Shown piece by piece: positions 1-41,812 of a stretch of DNA of 64,000 nt; position 1 is the first letter of the stretch; every line of letters begins with the position of its first letter. The position numbers were made by a program, and so were the translations under genes. This stretch comes from a bacterium (lineage in GTDB: Bacteria > Patescibacteriota > Gracilibacteria > Absconditabacterales > Absconditicoccaceae). The DNA lies in NCBI GenBank assembly GCA_020627925.1, contig JAHDFY010000001.1:65297-129296 (forward strand), written 5' to 3'. Under the pieces are notes generated by a model that was not told where the DNA came from, made no database searches, and was given only the letters and a program-made list of their open reading frames with translations.

Positions 1-90
1 CTCCGTTTTGTGGCATCGGTGCTTGCATCCCTCCATTTTGTGGCATCGGTGCTTGTATCCCTCCGTTTTGTGGCATCGGTGCTTGCATCC
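1..90. repeat. Three tandem 30-bp repeats, coding
   Basis: Three back-to-back 30-bp units (1-30, 31-60, 61-90) differ at only a couple of bases; a degenerate fourth follows. On the minus strand, in the frame of the gene they lie in, each unit encodes the decapeptide (M/I)QAPMPQNGG. The array touches the window edge, so its full copy number is unknown. There are no spacers, so it is not a CRISPR array. Confidence 0.9.
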
Positions 91-1177
91 CTCCGTTATT
101 GTTCCATCCATTTTGTTGGTACATTGTTCTTGGAGAACCACAATCATCGCAAGGTCTTGTAACGTGTTTTTTGTGACGTTTAATGAGGAATATTATCAAT
201 AATATCAACAGGATAAATCACACGATTATCAGCACCAACAATCGCGGGAAGATAAAAAAACCTCCGCTCAACGTCATTTCTTGCATCTTCCTCATCTCTT
301 CTGTAATATCGTCAGATTCAAAATCAAAAATAGTTTGATATTCTAGTCTATACGAAACAGAAACAGATCATTTGTACCAGGGTATCACAACTGGAGATTC
401 TACACTTGTTTGATCTCCAGGCAATAATTTTCTTGTTCAAACTTCTTCTTCTGCAAGAGTTCCAAACATTCCTTTGACAGTACGATAGATGGTCGCTTCT
501 TGAATAGTGTTTCCATTATTGACCATAGACAATGACGAAATCAATCCTTGTTCTTCATTCCTTACTCAAATGAATACTTCAGGATTATTTGATTGCGAAT
601 TATCTTCTTCTGTAGTAGGAACAATTTTTAATTCTGAAATGATTTTTCCATTAATAATCACGTCAATAAATGTTCCTTTACGAAGATCTATAGAAAACAT
701 TCCTCATCATCACGTATTTTCTTGGATTAACTTACTGATAATACATCCGTATATTTTACCAGTTACTCACGCGGGAAATTTTAACGAAAAACTTGTTCTT
801 GTAGTACCATTTGCTGGAACAACTACTTCTGTTTCATTAAATGTCACATATTGACCAAATCTTTCAATATCTGTATCGTTTTTACAAGCTTTTAGTTGGC
901 TTGAATCATTAGTAACCGTTCCATCAACAAATGTAACCGCTACTTTTGCTTGTTCTCATGCTTTATTTGCAAAATCTAAACACACTTCAAAATCCTCACC
1001 TGAGTCAAGCGTATAACTTGCTTCCGAAAGGCTTTCTTCTCCATTACAAAAGGTAATATCAATTTTTCCTATTTCAGCAGGATCATTAGCAAAAACTCCT
1101 AAAGATGAAAATAGAAAAATAAAACTTAGTAAAAACAATGTAGATAACACATTGAGAGATCATGAAATTATTTTCAT
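1..1177 (-). CDS. Membrane-anchored secreted beta-domain protein, WxLIP-like (partial, C-terminus off window)
   Basis: The reading frame runs off the left edge after 392 codons. The ATG at 1177 gives MKIISG and a hydrophobic run ending VFA|ND, a signal peptide with a UGA-coded Gly6. The exported domain (about 31-300) carries FVDGTVTND, FGQYVT, GTRKLLPGD and FDFESDDITEEM, each matched in the protein at 40754-41812. A membrane helix (about 305-330) is followed by a basic tail, a CDDC pair and PQNGG-rich decapeptide repeats. Signal peptide, beta-rich ectodomain, membrane helix and basic tail is the layout of Firmicutes WxL-interacting proteins (DUF916/DUF3324); that family link is inference from architecture. 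The Gly of GTRK is UGA here and GGC in the paralogue. It is divergent from the related gene at 1404. Confidence 0.85.
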
Positions 1178-1403
1178 CTGTCTAATAAAATCAAAAAATG
1201 TAAATATTTAGTTTGTTTTTTGTTAACATACTAAAACAAAGCTTATATGTTTTATCATTTTTTTCAAAGAAAAAACTATGGATATGCAAATATGGTACAC
1301 CGTTTTTCTTTTTTTATTACATTAATAAACAACAACAAAAAGCCTTTCAATATTTTGCTTAATTATTACAATGACACTAATTTTACATTATATAACAAAA
1401 CAT

Positions 1404-2096
1404 ATGTTTCGTTGAATACTATGAGTACTTGTACTATGCACTAGCTTCTCCATTACCTACGCTATGCCAAACGTTGCAGCAGTAAATCTTAAATTTTGTG
1501 ACAACCCTGATCAGCTAAAAAAAACACTGGTATATGAAGTTGCACCCAACCACCCGTATGAAATATGTGTCAGATTAGAAAATAAGAATGATGACATCAT
1601 TCCTATTGGTTTGAGCTTTGTTGAAGGTATTTACACTAATGATACTGTTGATAATAGAGCTTGTGAAACAGCAGATAAAGAATCAGAATTTGCTGCTCAT
1701 GCTACCATATCAGAAACAGATTTACTGATGGCTCCCAATGATGTAAAGTTTGAAAAAATAACACTTAACTTTCCTGAAAAACAAACAGGAAGCGGAAATT
1801 ATTTAGGCTGTTTGGTCATTATATCGCAATTGACAAACAAAAATGCTCCCAAATCAAATATTGAAATAGAACTTCGTAGAGCTATTTTTATGGACGTAAC
1901 AGTAAATCCATCACTAGAAGCATGAACACTCATAGATAAAACACAACCAGAAAATAATACAAGTGAAGGAGGAGAAGACGATCAAGACTACAAAAAGAAA
2001 AAAATTTGGTATGTATTAGCTCTCATCCTACTACTTGCTCTTATAGGAGGAATTGTATACAAACATACAGAAAAAAATAAACCATCAAAAAAATAA
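1404..2096 (+). CDS. Membrane-anchored secreted beta-domain protein, WxLIP-like short paralogue
   Basis: 230 residues. ATG at 1404 gives MFRGILGVLVLCTSF with two UGA glycines and a signal peptide ending ITYA; starting at the later ATG (1464) would remove it. The ectodomain holds LKFCDNP, FVEGIYTND and GNYLGCLVI, aligning with ITFC, FVDGTVTND and GKIYGCII of the divergent neighbour. An acidic linker (GGEDDQD) precedes a membrane helix and a Lys-rich end (NKPSKK). It is about half the length of the paralogues at 1-1177 and 40754-41812 and lacks their FDxxSDxITEEM segment. The role is inferred to be a cell-surface anchor or scaffold. Confidence 0.8.
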
Positions 2097-2152: not shown

Positions 2153-2803
2153 CTACAATAATGTCATATTAATTTTTCCGTACAATTCTCCCGGATTAGT
2201 AAACGCAGGAATTGTTACAGACAGCCAAGGGATTATTCCGTATTTACCAATACGTCCAAAGTTTTCTCCTGTTTTTCTTTGGAATAGTGTAATTGGGTTT
2301 GCTAGAGTAAAGTAATCTGTTGTGATACTTTCTCCCAATAGTAGATCTGGGTTTTCTGTTCCCGCTATTGTTGTAATATCTCTATTGTTTACTTTGATGT
2401 AGATATTTTCCGCTGGAATTTCTACTCCTTCCGCTGTTGCATGCACCAATGATGTTGCTTGCAATGTTACGTAAAATCCTTCATCGTCTCCCAATAGATC
2501 ATTTACTTGAAAATACTCTTCTTGTTCTTCTGAAAATTGTTTTTCTACTGTTACATCTTCATCAGATGCGGTAAATGCTCCCAAATCAAAATTAGATGGA
2601 GCTTCAATAGTAACACTTTTACCTGTCACTTTTACCTTTACTTCTGTTTCTTTTGCTCCAGCATCTGAAGCATCAACAGCATTTGCTTGAAGAAGTTGCA
2701 CTTGTGGTTCTTCAGCAACAGAGACAGCCATAACTTGTCCCATAGTTGTTAAAGTCATTACAGATAGAGCACTAACTGCTGCAAGTTTTCCAAATTTGTT
2801 CAT
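2153..2803 (-). CDS. Secreted WxL-like surface protein
   Basis: 216 residues with a signal peptide (MNKFGKLAAVSALSVMTLTT...VMA). The exported part is a single beta-rich domain: VTIEAP, F-VNDLLGDDEGFYVTLQATSL, ITLFQR, GKYGIIPWLSVTIPAF, then ELYGKINMTLL at the C-terminus. The same order of elements occurs in the protein at 37133-37735 and in the last 170 residues of the giant protein at 33253-36951. The C-terminal Y-x-x-x-hydrophobic-x-T-L pattern resembles the distal motif of Firmicutes WxL domains, with the Trp replaced. None of its glycines is UGA-coded. The family call is inference; a TasA-like or other beta-sandwich fold is possible. Confidence 0.75.
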   Translation of the reverse strand: MNKFGKLAAVSALSVMTLTTMGQVMAVSVAEEPQVQLLQANAVDASDAGAKETEVKVKVTGKSVTIEAPSNFDLGAFTASDEDVTVEKQFSEEQEEYFQVNDLLGDDEGFYVTLQATSLVHATAEGVEIPAENIYIKVNNRDITTIAGTENPDLLLGESITTDYFTLANPITLFQRKTGENFGRIGKYGIIPWLSVTIPAFTNPGELYGKINMTLL

Positions 2804-30444: not shown

Positions 30445-31659
30445 ATGTTCAAGGCAAAAAAAACACTTATCTACATGATCGTTTGTCTATTAGCAATACA
30501 CACAACCCCTTTTTCTATAGCACAAGAACCTGAAGATGACCTACTCAACCTTATTGATGGCTTGCTTGACGAAGAAAACAATAGCGATAGACAAGGTGAT
30601 GGGATACCAGAAGACGAAATACTTCCCGATCTCAATATTGCAAGCGCACAATATATCAAAGAACAACACAATGTGACCGTACAAGTATGTCAATCACAAG
30701 CAAATTATGTCCAAAATACGACCATCACGGTAGAAGCAGAAATCAAATCATATCTACCAGTACTGCAAGATATCACTATTCCAGGAATAGGATGTAGCAA
30801 TGTATATCTGTCACTCAACAAAGATGCTTTACAAGAGGAATGAAGTGTGCTTATCGAGTTACAGGTTGATGGCAATAATCGTGTCAAAGAAACGGATGAG
30901 AGCAACAATGCATATCTTTTACATGCTGATTTCGGAACAACAACACAAGAAGCACCAATCAAAGCAAAACCTGATTTTTACGTAAAAAATGTATGATACG
31001 ATAATTTTTCAGAAAAAGTGGAAGCAACATTTTGTCAAAACAACGAAGAAAGCAGTGATACCTACTTTCCATTAGTTGGCCTACAAATCAACAACGGACA
31101 ACTAGTGTGAAACAAAAAAATAAAACTCTGAGCAAAAGGTTGTTATACCATGAACCGACATAGAAACAATTTATGAATCATCACATCGCAAAAATATTTA
31201 CTCAAAGCAAGCATTGACGATAATAATGAAATAGAAGAAAGCAACGAACAAAATAATCAAAAAACATCAACAGTATTGATAGAAACAGAAAACGACGAGC
31301 AATTTTCACAAGATTTCATTTTGCAATACCCTCTCGTAAAAGAGAACTGTACATATGACAAAATGTATACCATTACTGATTGTAAAAAATTTGGTGATAT
31401 AAGAAAAAAAATAAATGAATTATTGGATAAAATGGACAAGCGTATAGCAAGCCTGACTGGAGAAGATTTGTCAAACGAAATCAATCGCATGGAAAGTGAA
31501 ATGATTATACTAAACAACAATTTCCCTCATGTCCTAAGTGGAGAACAATTACTACGTAAAAATTTTATTTTTTCGTACACCAACTATAGCTTACAAATGT
31601 ATACATACTATATGACTCATTCTGACTCAAAAAATTTTAGAAAAGATATGTTCAAATAA
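30445..31659 (+). CDS. Secreted CARDB-like surface protein
   Basis: 404 residues with a signal peptide ending FSIA|QEPEDD. Two beta domains, about 60-170 and 180-275, each end in the CARDB pattern: VDGNNRVKETDESNN and DDNNEIEESNEQNN. An acidic linker precedes the first. The C-terminal 130 residues are helical (DIRKKINELLDKMDKRIASL). CARDB domains are Ig-like adhesion modules. Its stop overlaps the start of the ECF sigma gene (TAATG), so surface protein and regulator are co-expressed. Confidence 0.8.
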
Positions 31660-32324
31660 TGCTTCACATTCACCAACAAGTGTCACTTGCGCTACTATTT
31701 ACCAGCATCTTTGATCACGTGATCAATGCAAATGAAGATGAAATAGATTCACTTCCTGCAACCATAAGCAAAGAAGAAGTATTTTCTTTAGTAGTGAGTA
31801 ATTATGTTGATAAGCTCTACAGATACATCAACTATAATTTTTGATTACAAAAAGCTATTACCGATGATGTAGTACAGGAAATATTTCTTGCCTTACCAAA
31901 AAAATTACACCATTTTGATACCAACAAAAAACTTGAGCCACGGTTATTCAAAGTCGCATATAACATGACACTCGACTACATCAAAAAAAACAAAAGAAGA
32001 AACGACAAAGAAATCGAAATAGACATCATTGCAACAGAAGATTTTCTCTATCAAGTAAGTAGTCAAGAAGGAGAGCTACCTCAGACCTTAGAAAAAGCTT
32101 ATCATGAGGGTCTTTTGAGATTTGTTCTCCACAAACTAGATCAAAGATCGAGACAAATGATTATCCTCTACTTTTTTGAGAACAAAACTTACCAAGAAAT
32201 TGCAACTATTATTGGAGTGAAACCATCATGAGTAGGAACACTATTGGCAAGAGCAAAAAAACAGTTAAAGTTTCAAATTCAACAAGACGCTCTTTTGCAT
32301 GATGCACTAATCTACGACCTATAA
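31659..32324 (+). CDS. ECF-type RNA polymerase sigma factor
   Basis: 221 residues, one-base overlap with the upstream gene. Region 2: VSNYVDKLYRYINYNFGLQKAITDDVVQEIFLALPKKLHHFD and LFKVAYNMTLDYIKKNKRR; region 4: LEKAYHEGLLRFVLHKLDQRSRQMIILYFFENKTYQEIATIIGVKPSGVGTLLARAKKQLK. Two glycines are UGA. The sigma is followed by a single-pass membrane protein, the usual place of an anti-sigma factor. Targets are unknown; the surrounding surface genes are candidates. Confidence 0.92.
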
Positions 32325-32355
32325 AACAATATTTTGATTTCATAAAACAACATTC

Positions 32356-32688
32356 ATGAAAAAAATAAAGGTATCAAAACTTTTTGAACAAAGTGCTTAT
32401 CATGGAACCAAAGCCGATGACGAACTAATCAAAGCGATTCTAGAACAATCAAAACATCCAAACGGATGAGAACGATCATCACGAATCAAAAAAATAATTA
32501 TTTTCGTTGGAATTGTTTTCCTATGATTTTTGGCATATCTTATTTTCACCATTGCCTTTACACAAAAATTATATACAACGCCTCCTATCAACTCTCCAAC
32601 TACAGGAGAAACAACACCCAATACCGACAATCGAGAAGAAGAAATATTTCAGGATATCGAGGGAATTTTATTACAAAAAGCTGAATAA
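32356..32688 (+). CDS. Single-pass membrane protein, putative anti-sigma partner
   Basis: 110 residues: a cytoplasmic N-terminus of about 45 residues (KVSKLFEQSAYHGTKADDELIKAILEQS), one membrane helix (IIIFVGIVFLGFLAYLIFTIAF, UGA Gly) and an acidic outside tail. It lies 31 bp after the ECF gene. The size, topology and location fit an anti-sigma factor, but no zinc-binding HxxxCxxC motif is present, so this is inference. Confidence 0.65.
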
Positions 32689-32727
32689 ACAGAGTAAAAA
32701 ACCATTTATTTCTTCTCTATTTTTTTG

Positions 32728-33252
32728 ATGAAAAGATGTCTTACCTACATATTCATAGCTAGTATTGTTGTAATTTCATGATGTAAATCGACTACGATGA
32801 CACTACCACAAGAAGTACAAAACAAAGCACAAATAGCAGTCAACACAATACAACAAAAATCTACTGAATACAAACAAACTATCATCACAACAATCAACAA
32901 CGCACAAGTAAGCGCGCTTCCCTACATAGAAAATATCGAACAACAAATCACCCAAAGTATTGCTTCTTTGCAAAAAGGAGAAACCTCTCAAAATGAAATA
33001 GTGCAATGTCTTCAAAAAAAAGGACTAATCTACTATACCGCAGAAACATGCCATTTTGCTCAACAACAAAAAGAAGTACTCAAACAAGAATATCATTCTT
33101 TTGATCGCATTTTTTGTGACAAAAGCAAGGATCTTATTCTATGTCAAAAAGCAGGCGTTCAATGAACACCTGCCCGATGAATACAAAACGGAACTATTCT
33201 TCACGGAGTAAAATCATTAGCAGCGCTTTGAGAAGCTTTTGATTGTGACTAG
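32728..33252 (+). CDS. Thioredoxin-like lipoprotein
   Basis: 174 residues. Signal peptide ending VVISGC, with the lipobox Gly coded by UGA. A helical stretch (about 25-95) is followed by a thioredoxin-like domain: LIYYTAETCHFAQQQKEVL, FDRIFCDKSKDLILCQKAGVQGTPARGIQNGTILHGVKSLAALGEAF. This resembles the small thioredoxin-like domain linked to VKOR, but the active CxxC is reduced to C-H-F-A; other Cys residues remain. Last gene of the ECF operon; its stop abuts the convergent giant gene with no gap. Confidence 0.75.
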
Positions 33253-36200
33253 CTACCTATCATACAACGTATAAGTAAGCACTCCAGAATACACATCAGG
33301 ACGACCAAATGGAGGAATGGTCGTTTTTAATGTAATTTCGCTACCATACACTCCTGTTAAATTAGCATTAGCTCAAGGAGATCTTTGAATATACACCAAA
33401 GGAGTATCAAAGACATGATATCACGTCATACCTGCTGCCAATGTCACATTAGGATTGGCTGCTCACGACAGTAGTACTAATCCGTTCGACTTCACATAAA
33501 TATCTGTATTCAAAATAGAACTCATACTACCACTCAAATGTGTAATTTGCAATGTCGTATAATATCCATCATCCAATCAGGTATCATCTTGCAGTGTAAA
33601 CATACCGGCACACGTGTGCTCTATATCGAATGAAAACCTTTCAATTTCAAATGGGAAGGTCGAACAAATATTGGGAGCTTTGATAGTAATATTAGGCTCG
33701 ACAAAACGTTCAATAGAGAACCACATGACATTTTCTGCCGTATGACTATCACAATAATTGAAACCATCAGCTTCACAATATCTAATATCAGCCCCATTAC
33801 TCAAAACATTACGCGCCCATGGGTACTGAGGATCTTGATTACCATTATCACTATTTTGTGTCACCATGATAATTGGGTCAATGTAATTTGGACTAAAACT
33901 AATTGGTGTCCACGCACTATTTGATATAGAAGAGAAACCATATTGTGCTCATGTAATGCTCATAGAAGCAACATCAATTGCAACATAACCAAATGTTTCC
34001 GAAGGTTGACCACCAGCACAATCATCTCACGCTCATTGGTGAACACAACCAATAAGATTCATCGTATTAGTCGTCACATCATCAGCCCAAGCAATAGCCG
34101 AAATATTTGCTCACTGATTTTGTGTTTGACTAGTGGTAAAGATATATGGAACATTATCAAAAGTCGTATCAAACGAGCGAGCTGTGTCAGATCAATCAGT
34201 AGCTACTGTCGTTGTTCCTATCTCAATCCAATCAAAATATTTTGCTGTTGTCTTATCAAAGACCAAATAATGGAAATCTTCAACACCAAAACCAGTATCA
34301 CATGTGGTCGCACTTGCATCCATGCAATATTTTAGTTCAAATGATCATGTGGTTACATTTCTTACTTGCGGTATTGGGTAGACATTGGCAGCATTCGTCG
34401 TTACAGGAGTCACAATAACAACAGGCACTTCTGTATAATTTTTCTTGAATGCAACAGTTGTCCACGCATCTCATGAAATCCCCAAAGCAATATCTCCATA
34501 AACTAATCTATTAATTGCCAAAGGGTCAAGAATCCAATCAACCGTGACCGGTAATGATCCTGTATATCAGTAAGGATCTTCATACTCAAACACAAACGTT
34601 CAATTCGTAGAAAAAATGCGGACTCCGGTCCCTCCATTGTTGGTTATTATCGTTCACGAACTAGGAATGACCGTTGCAATTACTTGTCATGTAGCCAACT
34701 CTGGTGGAGAGAAAGAAATCTGAAACGATGGCATATCTTGTCTATCAAAAGCGGCCCAAACCAAATCTTCGCTTGAATGTCCATCACAAAAATTTGGACC
34801 ATCTGCTTCACAAAATCTTACTTGAGCAGCATTGATCGTTGCATTCCTTACCCATGCATATTGGGGATCTTGACTTCCATTATCACTATTCTGTGTTACC
34901 ATCAAGACAGGATCAGTAATTCACTCATCGTACAAAATACTCGTCCAAGTACTACTCGCCACAGGCACTAGACCCAAACGAGCATTAATGACATCTATCA
35001 TCGATGGATCTATAGCAACCCAACCAAAATTTTCATTAGGTTGCGAAGCTTGACAAGAATCACCTACTCATGGGTGAACACATCCAATAAGGTCTGCTTT
35101 TACTTTTCTGATTTTTGTTACCCAAGATACAGCAGCTATATTATCTGCTTGATTTTGTGTTTGACTTGTCGTCCAAACATAAGGATCATTTGACAAGTTA
35201 GAGCCATAAGAAAAAGAAGTTGTTCCTCCATCAGTTGTTCATGTCGTGTTACCTACAGCAATCCATGACAACGTTGCCGCCACATCTCTATCAAAAACCA
35301 TAACATCAATATTTTCTGGATTGGCTGTTTCATCACATTGAGGTTGTCCAGCATCAACACAGATTTTTAACTCAAAACCTGTTCTTGTGACATTTCTTAC
35401 TTGCGGAATTGGATAATTATTTCCATTATTATCAGTGGAAGGTGTTGCAATAATAACCGGAATTGAAGCATATTCCTTTTGATACAAGACAGTCGTTCGA
35501 ACAACCGGATCAACATCCTCTACACGGGATGCTCTGACCAATCTATCCAACACAATAGAATCTTGCACTGTTCCCGTATTTCCAAACGAATCTCTAAACA
35601 ACGCATAAACCGTTTTTAGTCCTCCAGGACCTGGCAACGTTCGTTGATAATCGCCACTAAAAGGAATCCACGCACTTGCATCTCTTTCGCCTGTCGTATT
35701 ACCAATTTTCATATCAACAACCCCTGTAATAACTGTTTGTAATTGTACTGTAGAATCATAAGTTACCGGAATATCTCCATTGATATAGAAATCACCATTA
35801 GCACTACCGACAGAGAAAAACGTCAAATGATTAGTAGAAAATTCCACAAAAGCGTCTCACGCAGAAACAATTGTTTTCGCTACACCATGATATTCCCACT
35901 CTAGACCATCTTGAGAAGTAAACACAATAAACTGTTCCTCTGCAATAAATCACTTGATAGGTACACGGATGGTAATATCAACCTGCCCACTTTCATTATA
36001 GAAATAAAGGTTTTCATCATAATTACCAATATGGATAATATTACGAACCTTTTGACCAAATAAACGAGAAGTATCAACAAACTCAGGCGCTTCCAAAATC
36101 CCTGTGTACAAGGTCAAATCTTCTTTCATCAACATCGTATCAGAAGGAATATAGACTTGAAGATCATTTGAAAGATTTGTTCTTTCTTTCCCAGCAACTA

Positions 36201-36951
36201 TGGTCGCTTCTGCAAAAGTACTTTGAAGAATATTCATATCCATATCCCCCGAATACGTAATAGTTGAAATGGTTCCCGTACCATTTACTCATGTTGCCAA
36301 AAAAGCATTTCCCGTACTCAACAATCATCTAGTCATCACTCATGTTTCATTCTGTCAAGAAACAGCGACTCACGACAACAGCAATCACGATCAATCCAAC
36401 AATTGTCACGAAAGCAATAGTCAAGAATTAAGCAATCATCAACTTACTCACGCACCGCTCATTCCTCATGAAAGAGTAACAATAATTCATGAAGAGAGAA
36501 CTCCTGTCTGGTTTCATGTTCCCAGAGATAATCACGTTGCGCTATTTCACGTAAAAAGGTTAAGTCCTGTCAACGACTTTCATGTATTCACCAATCCTGT
36601 GCTATCTGATCCTGTGACATGAGAAGTATTTCATGTAATATTACTTCATGATACACTATTTCATGTTATCACGTTGTTACTACCTGATCAAAGATTATTT
36701 CATGTAGCAGCACTGTGAGTAGATCAAGAAATAGTATTATTATTAGCACCAGTGTTGTGCAAAGTATTACCAACAGGAACAACAGATCACGAAAGCTGTG
36801 ATCAAGTAAGTAAAACACCTGTTGCTTGTGCCCAAACAAAAGAAGAGAGCAAAAAAGCAATCACAAATATTAGGTGAATAGAAAAAACAACAACTAATGC
36901 AGAGAAAAGCTTTACGTGAGAAATAAGTTTATTCAACCAATATGTTGCCAT
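33253..36951 (-). CDS. Giant secreted adhesin with UGA-rich linker, lectin-like repeats and WxL-like C-terminus
   Basis: 1232 residues, confirmed as one frame. A long signal peptide ends FVWAQA. Residues about 45-235 are low-complexity Gly/Ser/Thr/Asn/Leu (SGSNITGNTS, NSGLLLSGQLL), with about 26 UGA glycines. From about 485 a unit of about 345 residues appears twice: VPV-I-TP...YPIPQVRNVT..FELK, GCVH-GxGDxCxxxQPxExFG, MVTQNSDNGxQDPQYxW. It recalls H-type-lectin-like beta-sandwiches (weak). The last 170 residues (GYYTTLQITHLSG...YSGVLTYTLYDR) match the WxL-like proteins at 37133 and 2153. Function inferred: surface attachment. Confidence 0.8.
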
Positions 36952-37066
36952 AATGTTTGCCTTATAATAAAGTTACTCTAAGTATAACCAAATAATTTGT
37001 TTTACTCCAATACATCAAAAAAAAAACAATAAAAGACCACCCAATTTACAAAAAAATTATATAAAT

Positions 37067-37092
37067 AAAAAAAGCATACGCAAACGTATGCT
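37067..37092 (-). terminator. Terminator after the WxL-like gene
   Basis: Stem AGCATACG/CGTATGCT, loop of four, T run on the minus strand, 40 bp past the stop at 37133. Confidence 0.9.
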
Positions 37093-37132
37093 CTCCGGTA
37101 ACCAATAATAGCTCTGATGCTATAGGAGTTTT

Positions 37133-37735
37133 CTAATTTTCAAACAATGTAAATGTAAGTGTTCCTGAATAAACTCACACTGCTTGATATGCTGGCACTA
37201 GCACTCTAAGAGTTGGTAGTACTCCGTATCTTCCTGTCAGACCATTATTTGTTGCAGGGTCTCTTTTGATAAAAGTAATTGCACTATCAATAAGAGTAAA
37301 AGTTGTCGAAACCGATGGTCCAAAAGCAACGTTTGAGTTAGCTGATCCTGCTAATAACAAGATATTTAGGGGATCTACTCTCAATGATACATTTGATGCC
37401 GGAATAGAATTTCCTACACCATCAGTCAAATTTGATGCTTGAATTGTTGTATAATATCCTGAAAAAGCTCATTTCAGATCTTGCACAACAAAATGTTCAC
37501 TAGTAGTTCCACTAAACGTGTATTCAACTGGTGTCGCAACCGTAGAAACGGGAAGAACACCCATATCAATAGATCCGGTAGCCTCAATCGTTAGATCTCC
37601 CCCTGTTAGAGTCAGATACACATCTGTACCTGTTGTTGACTGAGCGTTTGTTGAACCAATTGATAATCCAATCAACGAAGTCACAGTAAGCATTCCAAGG
37701 AATAGTTTTTTCGCAAGGTTTCTCATGTATTTCAA
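37133..37735 (-). CDS. Secreted WxL-like surface protein
   Basis: 200 residues; signal peptide ends STNAQ. A single beta domain: LTIEATGSIDMGVLPV, HFVVQDLKGAFSGYYTTIQASNLTDG, NILLLAGSAN, ITFIKRDPATNNGLTGRYGVLPTLRVLVPAY, and C-terminal VYSGTLTFTLFEN. It is collinear with the domain at the end of the giant gene downstream and with the protein at 2153-2803. The terminal YxGxLTxTL resembles the distal WxL motif with Phe for Trp. Two UGA glycines (KGAFS, VGVYS). Confidence 0.8.
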
Positions 37736-38021
37736 AACAAGAATAAATCAGTTACTCATTCACATACAAGAATAGTTTCATGGTAGACAAACATACAGTA
37801 TACAGTACAACTTCTTATCATCAAAGACACAGAATATGTTCTGTTATTATTTGTCGTATCCAAATCTGTCTACGAACATCCCACCTCATCCAACCTCATA
37901 CAGTCTTTGAAAACCAATTGTACATCGTTGGCAAGTGATTAATGTTGTACTCTATGGTATACCATCCACCACGATGATTCTACTACCAGAAATATAATCT
38001 TTTTTGAATGAGCTAATTACA

Positions 38022-39410
38022 TTATATCACATAATCTTTTTTTGTCAATTTTTTGAGATCTTTTTTCTTTGGATCCTTCAAAATAATGTTACGCGCTAAA
38101 CTTCTATTGTAATCCCAGTACCAAAAAACATAGAATTCCAATAATTTTTTATTTCTCCAATCATTAGTATAATAGTCATCATAAATACTATCTAACCACA
38201 ATTCTATATCACCTCCCTTATACTCTTTTTCACAATTATGCAGCAAAGGGTCACAAGCAAAGAGGTCTTCACTCCAGACTGCATCATCAATCGTTGCAAC
38301 AGGTATTTTTTTAATTGTTATTTCATTATTAATTTCTGTAATCACCAGTGCAGTTTCTTCGTCATTTACTACCACCGGTCTATCAAGCGACTCTGTCAGG
38401 GGAATAGGAGAATAGACTGACTCATTATCAGGTAGTGGGGATCAGAATTTTTCATCAATAACCACTCATTCATCATCGCCAGATCCTACAGCAACTACTC
38501 AGGAAATAGTTCACTGTGTGGGGTCATCTCCAATAGCATCACACAGTCAGTCATAATAACTTGGAGACTTATCAACAGCACAGTCATCTTTAACAAGTAC
38601 CTTAGTAATAGTTCCTCATGGTGATCCATTTGATCCGTTATTACTTCCATACACAAAGTGTCCTATTGACGAAACAGACGCATTACCAACATTATCAACA
38701 GCAACAACGTACCAGAAAAGAGGTCATGATGGAAAAAAAGATCAAGACAATGCAAAAGAAGTTCAGGTAGTCTGATACACCAAAAATGGTGACGAAAATG
38801 TCGGACTAGTAGACAATACTATCTGATATCATGATAAACCAGCTCCAGTGTCCGACGAGGCTGCCCAATCAAAAGACACAGGTCACGTTGAAACAGTAAT
38901 CCCATCAGCAGGACCAATTCTTGATACAACTGGTGGCGCTGTTTGGTCAACAAACACACCAAAAGAAGGTAGTTGAAGAGGTTCTGTTCCTTTAATAAAC
39001 ATAGGATCAATAATTTTTAATCATTCGCCAGGGGTTGCATCTACTGTTGTATAAATATCAATACCAAAGTAGCCTGAAAGAGGATGTACAGAAGAAATTG
39101 TTTGTCACGAAAGCACATCTCAAGAAAATTCAGCAGTAGCGTTTGAAGAAGCATTGACAATAATCGGAATAGTAGCGCTCGAAGAAAAAAGTAAATCAAA
39201 AGAATTTTTATACAATAATCAAGTATTGGGAACAACATACCCTGTATATGTGTTCATTATTCTCAGCACCAAATCGGTATTTTTTTGTGCTCAAACAAAA
39301 GAAGAAAAAAAGAAAAATGAGAAAAAACAAAAACCAGCAAAAGCACAAAAAGAAAGCTTTCGATCAAAATTATGCAATGTTTTCTTGGAATTTTTGTAGT
39401 AAAAAATCAT
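38022..39410 (-). CDS. Secreted Ig/FN3-like protein, unknown
   Basis: 462 residues with about 16 UGA glycines. Signal peptide ending SFVGAQ. Residues about 45-135 form one beta domain; about 140-240 (APPVVSRIGPADG, PVSFDWAASSDTGAGLSGYQIVLSTS, FWYVVAVDNVGNAS) look like an Ig/FN3-type fold. A Gly/Ser/Asp-rich linker follows and the C-terminal 115 residues are mixed charge, ending in a Lys-rich tail (KDPKKKDLKKLTKKDYVI). No membrane anchor visible. Faces the solute-binding protein gene divergently. Confidence 0.75.
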
Positions 39411-39586
39411 AAGAATAATGACGATAAACTAGCTATAGTATAAGCGAACAAGAGGAATTTGTCAAAAATTGACGAATAATACAAAGAGATTGTTTTTAAT
39501 AAATAATACAATAATATAAAAAGTTAATAGAAAGAAGAGTAAAGCAAACACCAATTAAGAATATTTTGATACGATAAACAACAAAC

Positions 39587-40723
39587 ATGACGACCAAGAA
39601 TCTATTTTTGACCACAATAGCAGTCATTATATGTTTTTGTATTGTATGATATATTGAAACACAGCCTCGTGATACATACCCAACAAAAATTGGAATCATT
39701 GCTCCATTTGAGTGACAATTAAAAGTATTTGGTCAATCGCTCATGAACATCTACACCATACAGGTGGAAAAACACAACACAGCAAACCCCGACAATCAAG
39801 TAACGCTCATTCCAGCAAATGCAGACTGTAGCACCAAAGGATGAATAAGAGCAGCAACCGAATTGATCAGCAAACACCATGTGCAATTAGCCATGTGAGG
39901 ATCTTGTTCAGCGGAAGCACTTTGAGCAATGAGAGTGGCACAAAAAAACGACATGTTTTTGATGGCACCTACTGCATCATCAGCAGATCTTATCTACCTC
40001 AATGACACCATGTTTAGAATAATGGACAATGGTCTTGCTGCAAAAAAATTAGTGGAATACCTTCATAAGCACAACATCAGAAATATAGCCGTTGTTGTAG
40101 AAAATACCCCAGCAGCTATACCATTTGGTTATAATGTTACCCAAAACTTTACAGGAAATATAACCGTCAATCTTATTATTAGCCAGCAAGAAGGACAAAT
40201 AGAAAATACACTTGCTATTTTGGATCAAGTTGACATAGAAGCGCTCATCGTGTTCACACAAGGGCCTTTTCTCACCGTTGAGCTATTCAACAAAATGATG
40301 CAACAATGAACATATGAAAATTATAGAAAAAAAATATACAGCGCCTTCAATCTTTCTACAAAAAAATTCAATCAATTATTCACAGGAAACAAAAACTGAA
40401 TAAAAGAAGTTGGCTTACCTTCTGCTCATTACTTCGGTGCAGATGCTATGGATTTTATACAAGAATATAAACAATATTCTGCTCTGAAATTATCTGAGTG
40501 ACTAGCACTCAATGCCAAAATAGGAATAGATTTGTTGCTTAAAGCAATAGAAAAAGGCCATAAAACACCAGCAACAATAAAAACATTTCTCAAGCAATTC
40601 AACCAACAAAACCCCATACAAACAAGCATAGGCCCTATTCATTTTGATTTTAATGGTAATGCACAAAATATCATCTATAGTATCAATCAATTAAGTGGCG
40701 ATCACATCATATTGCTTGAATAA
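39587..40723 (+). CDS. Periplasmic-binding-protein-type-1 lipid-facing solute receptor, LivJ-like
   Basis: 378 residues. One N-terminal membrane helix (LFLTTIAVIICFCIVGYI) acts as an uncleaved anchor or signal. Then TKIGIIAPFEGQLKVFGQSLMNIY, DCSTKGGIRAATELISKHHVQLAMGGSCSAEALGAMRVAQKNDMFLMAPTASS: the first lobe of branched-chain amino-acid-binding (Leu/Ile/Val) type receptors, with UGA glycines at the conserved turns. No ABC permease or ATPase is adjacent, so it may be a sensor or an orphan receptor. Ligand unknown. Confidence 0.85.
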
Positions 40724-40744
40724 AAAAAACCGCCACAAAGGCGG
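40722..40744 (-). terminator. Terminator for the gene starting at 41812
   Basis: Stem CCGCC/GGCGG; on the minus strand it ends in eight T and lies 10 bp past the stop at 40754. It overlaps the end of the plus-strand receptor gene. Confidence 0.85.
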
Positions 40745-40753
40745 TATAAAAAA

Positions 40754-41812
40754 CTATTTCTTTCTTTTACCCGTTGAAGATTTAGATTTTTTCGATGAAT
40801 TACTTACTTTTCTTCGGTACTCGTGATTTGCCTTATATTTTCTCACTGCATAGACGACAAAGAGAACAAAAGCCATAACCATACCTATCATTTCCCAAGG
40901 AATAACAAGATACCTTGTGGTAAATACGTGGTGCTTTTCTTGCTTCATTTCTTCGGTAATATGATCAGAATTATAATCAAATACAGGGGTGTAATCAACA
41001 TGATATACTTCGGTAATAAGTCCTTTTTCCCAGAATTCTAAAGGAACCGGTGTAATCACTCTTGCAGTATCTCAAGGAAAAATTTTTCTTACGCCAAGAT
41101 TTTCCTCCCTTTTTTCACCAAACCAAGTATACGTTGTTTTGTAGAGAGTTGCTTCTTGAGAAATATTTCCACTATTGGCAAGCAAAACAATACTTGCCAA
41201 ACCTTCATTTGCTACATTAGTAGCAACATATGAATGCGCATGACTTGCAATGTCTTTTCCAAATTCTTTTTCTGGTGTAGAGAAATGTAGATCCAATTTA
41301 ATTTCTCCCTTTACATAAAAGTCAACAAAACTTCCTTTACGTAGTTCAATAGAAAACATTCCAGCTCCTTCAATATTATCAGGATTAACAATTTGCGTCA
41401 CAACACATCCATAACTCATTCCGGCAAAACCATCAGGATATTTCAGTGTAAATCTTTTTTCTACCGATCATTTTCCTGGTATAATAACTACCGGGTGATC
41501 AATAGTAACAAATTGTCAAAAGTTTTGCTTTTCATGTCAAAGCTTACATGCCTTATATTGACTTTCATCGTTAGTTACCGTACCATCTACAAAATCAATC
41601 GCTACATGTGCATTGTCCTGATGATCATTAAAAATCTTGAGACAAACTTCTTTTTCCTCTTCTGATTCGATTTCATAACTAACAGATTTAAACAACGATC
41701 CATCTTCTTCACAAAACCTCACCGTAATATTTCCAATATCACCCGCAGCATGCACTATGGTTGCAACACTCAAAAAAAGCGAGAAAAGAAATAAGGAGAA
41801 TAATTTTTTCAT
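40754..41812 (-). CDS. Membrane-anchored secreted beta-domain protein, WxLIP-like
   Basis: 352 residues. Signal peptide ends IVHA|AGD. Ectodomain contains ITVRFCEEDG, VAIDFVDGTVTNDESQYKACK, FGQFVTIDHP, GMSYGCVVTQIV, ENLGVRKIFPGD and VFDYNSDHITEEM; then a membrane helix (IPWEMIGMVMAFVLFVVYAV) and a Lys/Ser/Arg-rich tail (KSKSSTGKRKK). It aligns along its length with the gene at 1-1177; UGA and GGN glycines swap between the two at matching positions (FGQ, LGVRK, PGD). The same topology as DUF916/DUF3324 WxL-interacting proteins; assignment is inferred. Confidence 0.85.

Follow-up and report, generated by a model that had tools for sequence, protein, structure and literature searches.

The closest described counterparts of the system reported here are the Csc/WxL surface clusters, in which CscA is a WxL-interacting protein (WxLIP), CscB a small WxL protein and CscC a large one. 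Nearly all descriptions of them come from Lactobacillales and Bacillales (PMC10599100, PMC9772566). In a published AlphaFold2 model of a WxLIP-WxL complex, a hairpin of the WxLIP becomes ordered and completes the WxL sandwich, and the transmembrane (TM) helix of the WxLIP was proposed to enter the host membrane (PMC10599100). CscC proteins carry ConA-like lectin or glucanase-like domains, with a proposed role in carbon acquisition, and a D-x-R-G sequence precedes motif 1 of WxL domains (PMC1534035). Here we analyze a 64,000-nucleotide stretch of bacterial DNA (the window; G000:C5:65297-129296, read under genetic code 25), in which positions 33253-41812 encode the same three protein types. We consider it likely that these form a distant Csc/WxL branch borne by the Candidate Phyla Radiation (CPR), in which an anchored WxLIP holds lectin-bearing adhesins by strand donation.

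The WxLIP-like protein of this region (352 amino acids [aa]; 40754..41812, minus strand) comprises a signal peptide, a PGBD-like domain (residues ~29-178), a second beta-sandwich (~194-302), a TM helix (306-343) and a basic tail with 13 Lys/Arg against 1 Asp/Glu over 29 residues. WxLIP_PGBD (PF06030) is the top Pfam match both for this protein (E 0.0029-0.0037) and for a second full-length copy that is cut at the window start (1..1177, minus strand; E 0.0017). The copies in the window score 17.7-18.8 bits, under the family cut-off of 27.3 bits, which is exceeded in the relative G165 (30.2 bits); among 31 relatives, PF06030 matches 21, with a best E of 1.2e-13. In hhalign comparisons, a 13-row Absconditabacteria profile aligned with eight Firmicutes WxLIPs at 97.8% (E 1.3e-12, 246 columns), and the alignment is colinear and extends into the second domain, at about 13% identity. 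The Firmicutes yardsticks, which come from strains of food or commensal origin, were reached by tblastn of a CPR WxLIP against plasmids, which found DUF916 proteins. An AlphaFold2 model (17-row alignment, mean predicted local distance difference test [pLDDT] score of 86) folds into two beta-sandwich domains and ends in a helix. Searched with Foldseek against the whole PDB, it ranks the solved Enterococcus faecium WxLIP first (9i1y, E 1.5e-10) and a WxLIP bound to a long WxL second (9i25, 2.6e-10), followed by CfaA and CsuC, chaperones of chaperone-usher pili. The two-domain architecture is common to EfmWxLIP1, the EfmWxLIP1-WxL complex and the model, at 8-10% identity and TM-scores of 0.44-0.60.

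The secreted partners carry a WxL-like domain of about 130-190 aa that nearly always ends at the C-terminus of the protein, in proteins of 181 to 2643 aa. The small protein of the region (about 197 aa; 37133..37726, minus strand, the listed open reading frame [ORF] running to 37810 with a TTG start) consists of a signal peptide and this domain only, scoring 306 bits against the WxL-like profile, while the large adhesin (1232 aa; 33253..36951, minus strand) ends in it (~33253-33780, 268.5 bits). A second small protein (2153..2803, minus strand) has Pfam WxL (PF13731) as its top match (E 0.002 for 2153-2905), and PF06030 or PF13731 is the top match for three window proteins among 24,736 families. 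PF13731 matches 9 of 40 relatives, with a best E of 3.7e-6; its cut-off of 25 bits is missed by the best window protein (18.6 bits) and exceeded in G010, of the Absconditabacteria family (28.0 bits), G146 (29.2 bits) and G157 (26.6 bits). When 40 CPR domains were aligned with 15 Firmicutes WxL domains by hhalign, the score was 97.3% (E 2.4e-11, 149 columns), whereas crossed controls gave 0.6% and 0.5%, the latter for the WxL-like profile against WxLIP.

The first-pass annotation of this DNA had described a shared Y-x-G-x-L-T-[FY]-T-L ending, close to the distal WxL motif but lacking its Trp. Two of the three secreted domains have this ending, but the third (2153-2803) ends LYGKINMTL. The missing Trp is borne out by the aligned relatives (F 19, Y 19, M 1 and V 1 in 40), and the Trp of the proximal motif is also largely replaced (Y 22, F 8, W 5). 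In the Firmicutes set, W is kept in 11 of 15 sequences at motif 1 and 14 of 15 at motif 2. Because some code-11 CPR members retain it, as GWSL or TWTL, the loss is a property of this branch. The Asp and Gly of D-x-R-G are among the near-invariant columns of the WxL-like alignment. As judged from sequence, the secreted domains are a WxL-like branch and not WxL in the strict sense, since Trp is gone at both motifs and the Pfam cut-off is missed.

The genome holding the window comprises 1.27 Mb in ten contigs, and the named relatives that turned up in GTDB belong to Candidatus Absconditabacteria and candidate division SR1; the bacterium is tiny and probably host dependent. With profiles built on window proteins, this genome yields three WxLIP-like and six WxL-like places, all within two clusters on contig C5 except for a WxL-like place at C3:6918-7496. 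The ORFs of cluster II (33253-41812) lie under code 25 where the first-pass annotation put them, and its giant adhesin, stand-alone WxL-like protein and WxLIP-built protein all stand, although its interval includes two genes that went unmentioned there (38022-39410 and 39587-40723). The full second set that it placed at 1-2803 is real but becomes complete only past the window start: cluster I also takes in upstream DNA with two large WxL-like genes (C5:62196-63569 and C5:63458-64942), one of them with RTX calcium-binding repeats, and the whole of the cut WxLIP gene (C5:65016-66473, ORF read on L011). Across the window start, at C5:65016-65420, the WxLIP of cluster I has a long (APMPQNGG)n tail that extends past the membrane and is partly recorded as N. 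Cluster I further contains a short WxLIP paralogue with a PGBD-like domain and a TM helix (1371..2096, plus strand; 344 bits against the WxLIP profile), which lacks the second domain, and comparable PGBD-only copies adjoin the full WxLIP in L090, L091, L092, L094 and L095. Two family members have PGBD-like proteins with no TM helix (L031:1321-2583 and L032:826-2082); the latter ends in a dockerin-like region (Dockerin_1, 5.9e-4), and the former looks alike by eye.

The large adhesin has a signal peptide, a G/S/T/N-rich region and H-type lectin domains (H_lectin PF09458, E 8.7e-11, three stretches) ahead of its WxL-like domain. The lectin domains lie within a module of about 1 kb that is present twice, and two families of DNA repeats in the gene have their copies spaced 1035 nucleotides apart. 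Large WxL-like proteins in relatives are as long as 2102-2643 aa, with modules of the LamG/ConA-like lectin, Big or PG_binding_1 type. A common gene order is large WxL, WxLIP, and then one of two genes, for a short paralogue with the PGBD only or for an Ig-like fourth protein. In cluster II this recurrent fourth partner is a secreted Ig/Fn3-like protein of 462 aa (38022..39410, minus strand); its homologues adjoin WxLIP in G010, G205, G078 and G042, and its C-terminus varies, with hydrophobic TM-like segments in two relatives. The copies at L087:9092-10522 and L089:9063-10463 have an SLH-like C-terminal half, unlike the window copy, and the Pfam SLH match is weak (E 0.004, L087 only).

Set beside Csc/WxL clusters, the loci thus share the C-terminal WxL-like domain, the signal peptides, the TM helix and Lys/Arg-rich tail of the WxLIP, the lectin modules on the large protein, the D and G of D-x-R-G, and clustering of the genes. 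In contrast, both motif Trp residues are here replaced by Tyr or Phe, and the PGBD carries four cysteines that are close to invariant (C34, C57, C89 and C136; 20-22 of 22 Absconditabacteria sequences), might form disulfides and are found in none of the code-11 and Firmicutes copies. There is also an extra PGBD-only paralogue, the fourth Ig-like partner takes the place of a small LPXTG protein, the genetic code is 25 and the adhesins extend to 2643 aa. Profile and model comparisons together argue that this is a genuine distant WxL/WxLIP branch in CPR, with an altered motif and added cysteines.

The two families occur together across related genomes, a check that the first-pass annotation had proposed, and they are also neighbors. 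Both partners are present in 19 of the 40 genomes of the family and neither in another 19, with a WxLIP-like protein alone in one and a WxL-like protein alone in one; 49 of 62 WxLIP-like places have a WxL-like place within 5 kb, against 2.6 expected. Elsewhere in the class, both partners occur in 7 genomes, one alone in 2 and 3, and neither in 190. Phylum-wide, WxL-like proteins were detected in 17 of 380 Patescibacteria, all of them among the 155 with WxLIP-like proteins. The corresponding P values, which ignore shared ancestry, are 2.9e-9 (family), 1.7e-9 (rest of class) and 1.4e-7 (phylum). Chance similarity is rejected on the matched versus crossed profile scores and on the colocalization. 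Across the phylum, WxLIP-like proteins outnumber WxL-like ones, so that some have no recognizable WxL domain as a partner.

How might such a complex work? The WxLIP-like protein would be exported via Sec and kept in the cell's own membrane by its C-terminal helix and basic tail; under the positive-inside rule, the Lys/Arg-rich tail would suit that membrane better than the membrane of a host. Its first, pilus-chaperone-like domain would then offer a flexible hairpin that lends a beta-strand to the secreted WxL-like domain and so completes an unfinished sandwich. Small WxL-like proteins and large lectin-bearing adhesins would thereby be held at the outside of the envelope, probably against peptidoglycan; the genome also encodes penicillin-binding protein transpeptidases and sortases. 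The least confident part of the modeled ectodomain is an unstructured loop (148-155) between strands 131-141 and 159-168, beside which lie the near-invariant residues I155, R158, I163 and D164. Given this loop, the published hairpin mechanism and the solved complex 9i25, strand donation by the WxLIP-like hairpin appears most likely. The lectin, LamG and RTX adhesins may bind glycans of a host or prey cell, as the large proteins carry lectin modules and relatives live attached: Vampirococcus, an Absconditabacteria member whose metabolism is very reduced, lives attached to its prey (PMC8080830).

The predicted folds also recall chaperone-usher systems, whose chaperones (CfaA, CsuC, FimC) resemble the WxLIP side and whose pilins (CsuA/B, CfaB, FimG) resemble the WxL side. 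The model of the small WxL-like protein (pLDDT 81) is all-beta, and its best PDB matches are these donor-strand-dependent pilins, which suggests the same strand-donation logic. However, the WxLIP-like partner is predicted to be membrane anchored, whereas a pilus chaperone is soluble and periplasmic; the likeness is one of fold, with no claim of sequence homology, and neither an usher nor a pilus gene was recognized in the cluster genes that were inspected. A broader idea, which we offer tentatively, is that WxL/WxLIP represents an old, phylum-crossing "anchored chaperone" display, in which pilin-like domains receive a lasting donor strand from a membrane-bound homologue or look-alike of a pilus chaperone; it could be a main holder of host-recognition adhesins in CPR, with Firmicutes as one branch.

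Several observations weigh against a Csc/WxL assignment with this mechanism. Trp is absent at both motifs in the window WxL-like proteins. By structure, the WxLIP-like model retrieves its solved counterpart, whereas the WxL-like model, a beta-sandwich, has a best Foldseek E of only 1.7e-3, to pilins, and its listed top 50 PDB matches do not include the solved WxL chain (9i25_A); the WxL relationship comes from profiles. No DUF3324 (HBD) match is among the listed Pfam hits of the WxLIP-like proteins, although the fold and the colinear profile alignment back such a nature for the second domain, and the motif NQIDKxxxYFDLK, present in the Firmicutes set, is absent from the WxLIP-like alignments. 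In code-11 Patescibacteria, the TM helix of WxLIP-like proteins is followed by one LysM domain or two (L033-L037, L040, L041, L117-L122), which is hard to fit with a cytoplasmic C-terminus. Lastly, the excess of WxLIP-like genomes (155 against 17 of 380) means that these proteins must also function with no detectable WxL partner. Searching the PDB by sequence, with alignments built on the window, yielded nothing of use, and a CPR WxL domain used as a tblastn query found no match among plasmids.

The same complex could instead capture or process polysaccharides or nutrients, as was first proposed for the Csc clusters of plant-associated lactobacilli. The lectin or glucanase-like domains of CscC, with their proposed role in carbon acquisition (PMC1534035), have a parallel in the lectin and LamG modules here, and cluster II includes a solute-binding-type Peripla_BP_6 protein (39587-40723, plus strand, opposite to its cluster II neighbors). 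We nevertheless judge this function unlikely, in view of the very reduced metabolism and prey-attached life of Vampirococcus and of the large proteins scanned, in none of which a glycoside hydrolase domain was found.

Convergence, by which unrelated secreted Ig-like proteins came to look like WxL and WxLIP, is improbable to a far greater degree. Beta-sandwiches do draw weak matches, DUF916 also matching Thermotoga and Methanosarcina controls, the window proteins fall under the Pfam cut-offs, and Foldseek returns pilus chaperones and other Ig folds as well. Yet each profile recovers its own Firmicutes counterpart (97.8% and 97.3%) and not the other (0.6% and 0.5%), WxLIP ranks first in the entire PDB, the pair is found clustered in several family-level lineages, and other CPR members retain Trp. 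The near confinement of described systems to Lactobacillales and Bacillales would accord with recent horizontal acquisition of a Firmicutes cluster, to which we give the least credence of all. In the WxLIP tree, 22 Absconditabacteria rows form one group (support 99) and 8 Firmicutes rows another (100), which sits on a branch as long as 2.0 changes per site; the low identity to Firmicutes WxLIP, the reading of TGA as Gly in the WxL- and WxLIP-like genes, and the occurrence of relatives across the phylum likewise argue against such a transfer. The WxL/WxLIP reading of the region is largely supported.

How CPR bacteria recognize and hold their hosts is largely open, with type IV pili as the main known factor. 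The loci described here offer, in Absconditabacteria, a concrete and testable candidate for a surface complex whose tips are of lectin type, and place a system described almost only in Firmicutes far more widely; the lost tryptophans and added cysteines make an informative case on the purpose of the WxL motif. WxL/WxLIP of lactic acid bacteria is already known; for the pair that recurs across CPR, in line with the first-pass annotation, we found no earlier account in the literature on WxL or DUF916 outside subscription journals and preprints, the DUF916 papers being judged by their titles and the openings of their abstracts.

A few further genes were noted. The reduced genome has three sortase genes (C5:44013, C5:375917 and C6:56331). 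Next to cluster II, window positions 31659-33252 (plus strand) hold a gene for an extracytoplasmic function (ECF)-type sigma factor (Sigma70_r4_2, 2.4e-12); behind it come the gene of a small TM protein, placed where an anti-sigma factor would be expected, and a lipoprotein-like gene. This group converges head-on with the large adhesin gene and could possibly regulate cluster II. Just before it, at 30445-31659 (plus strand), lies a gene for a secreted protein with CARDB Ig-like domains (1.9e-12).

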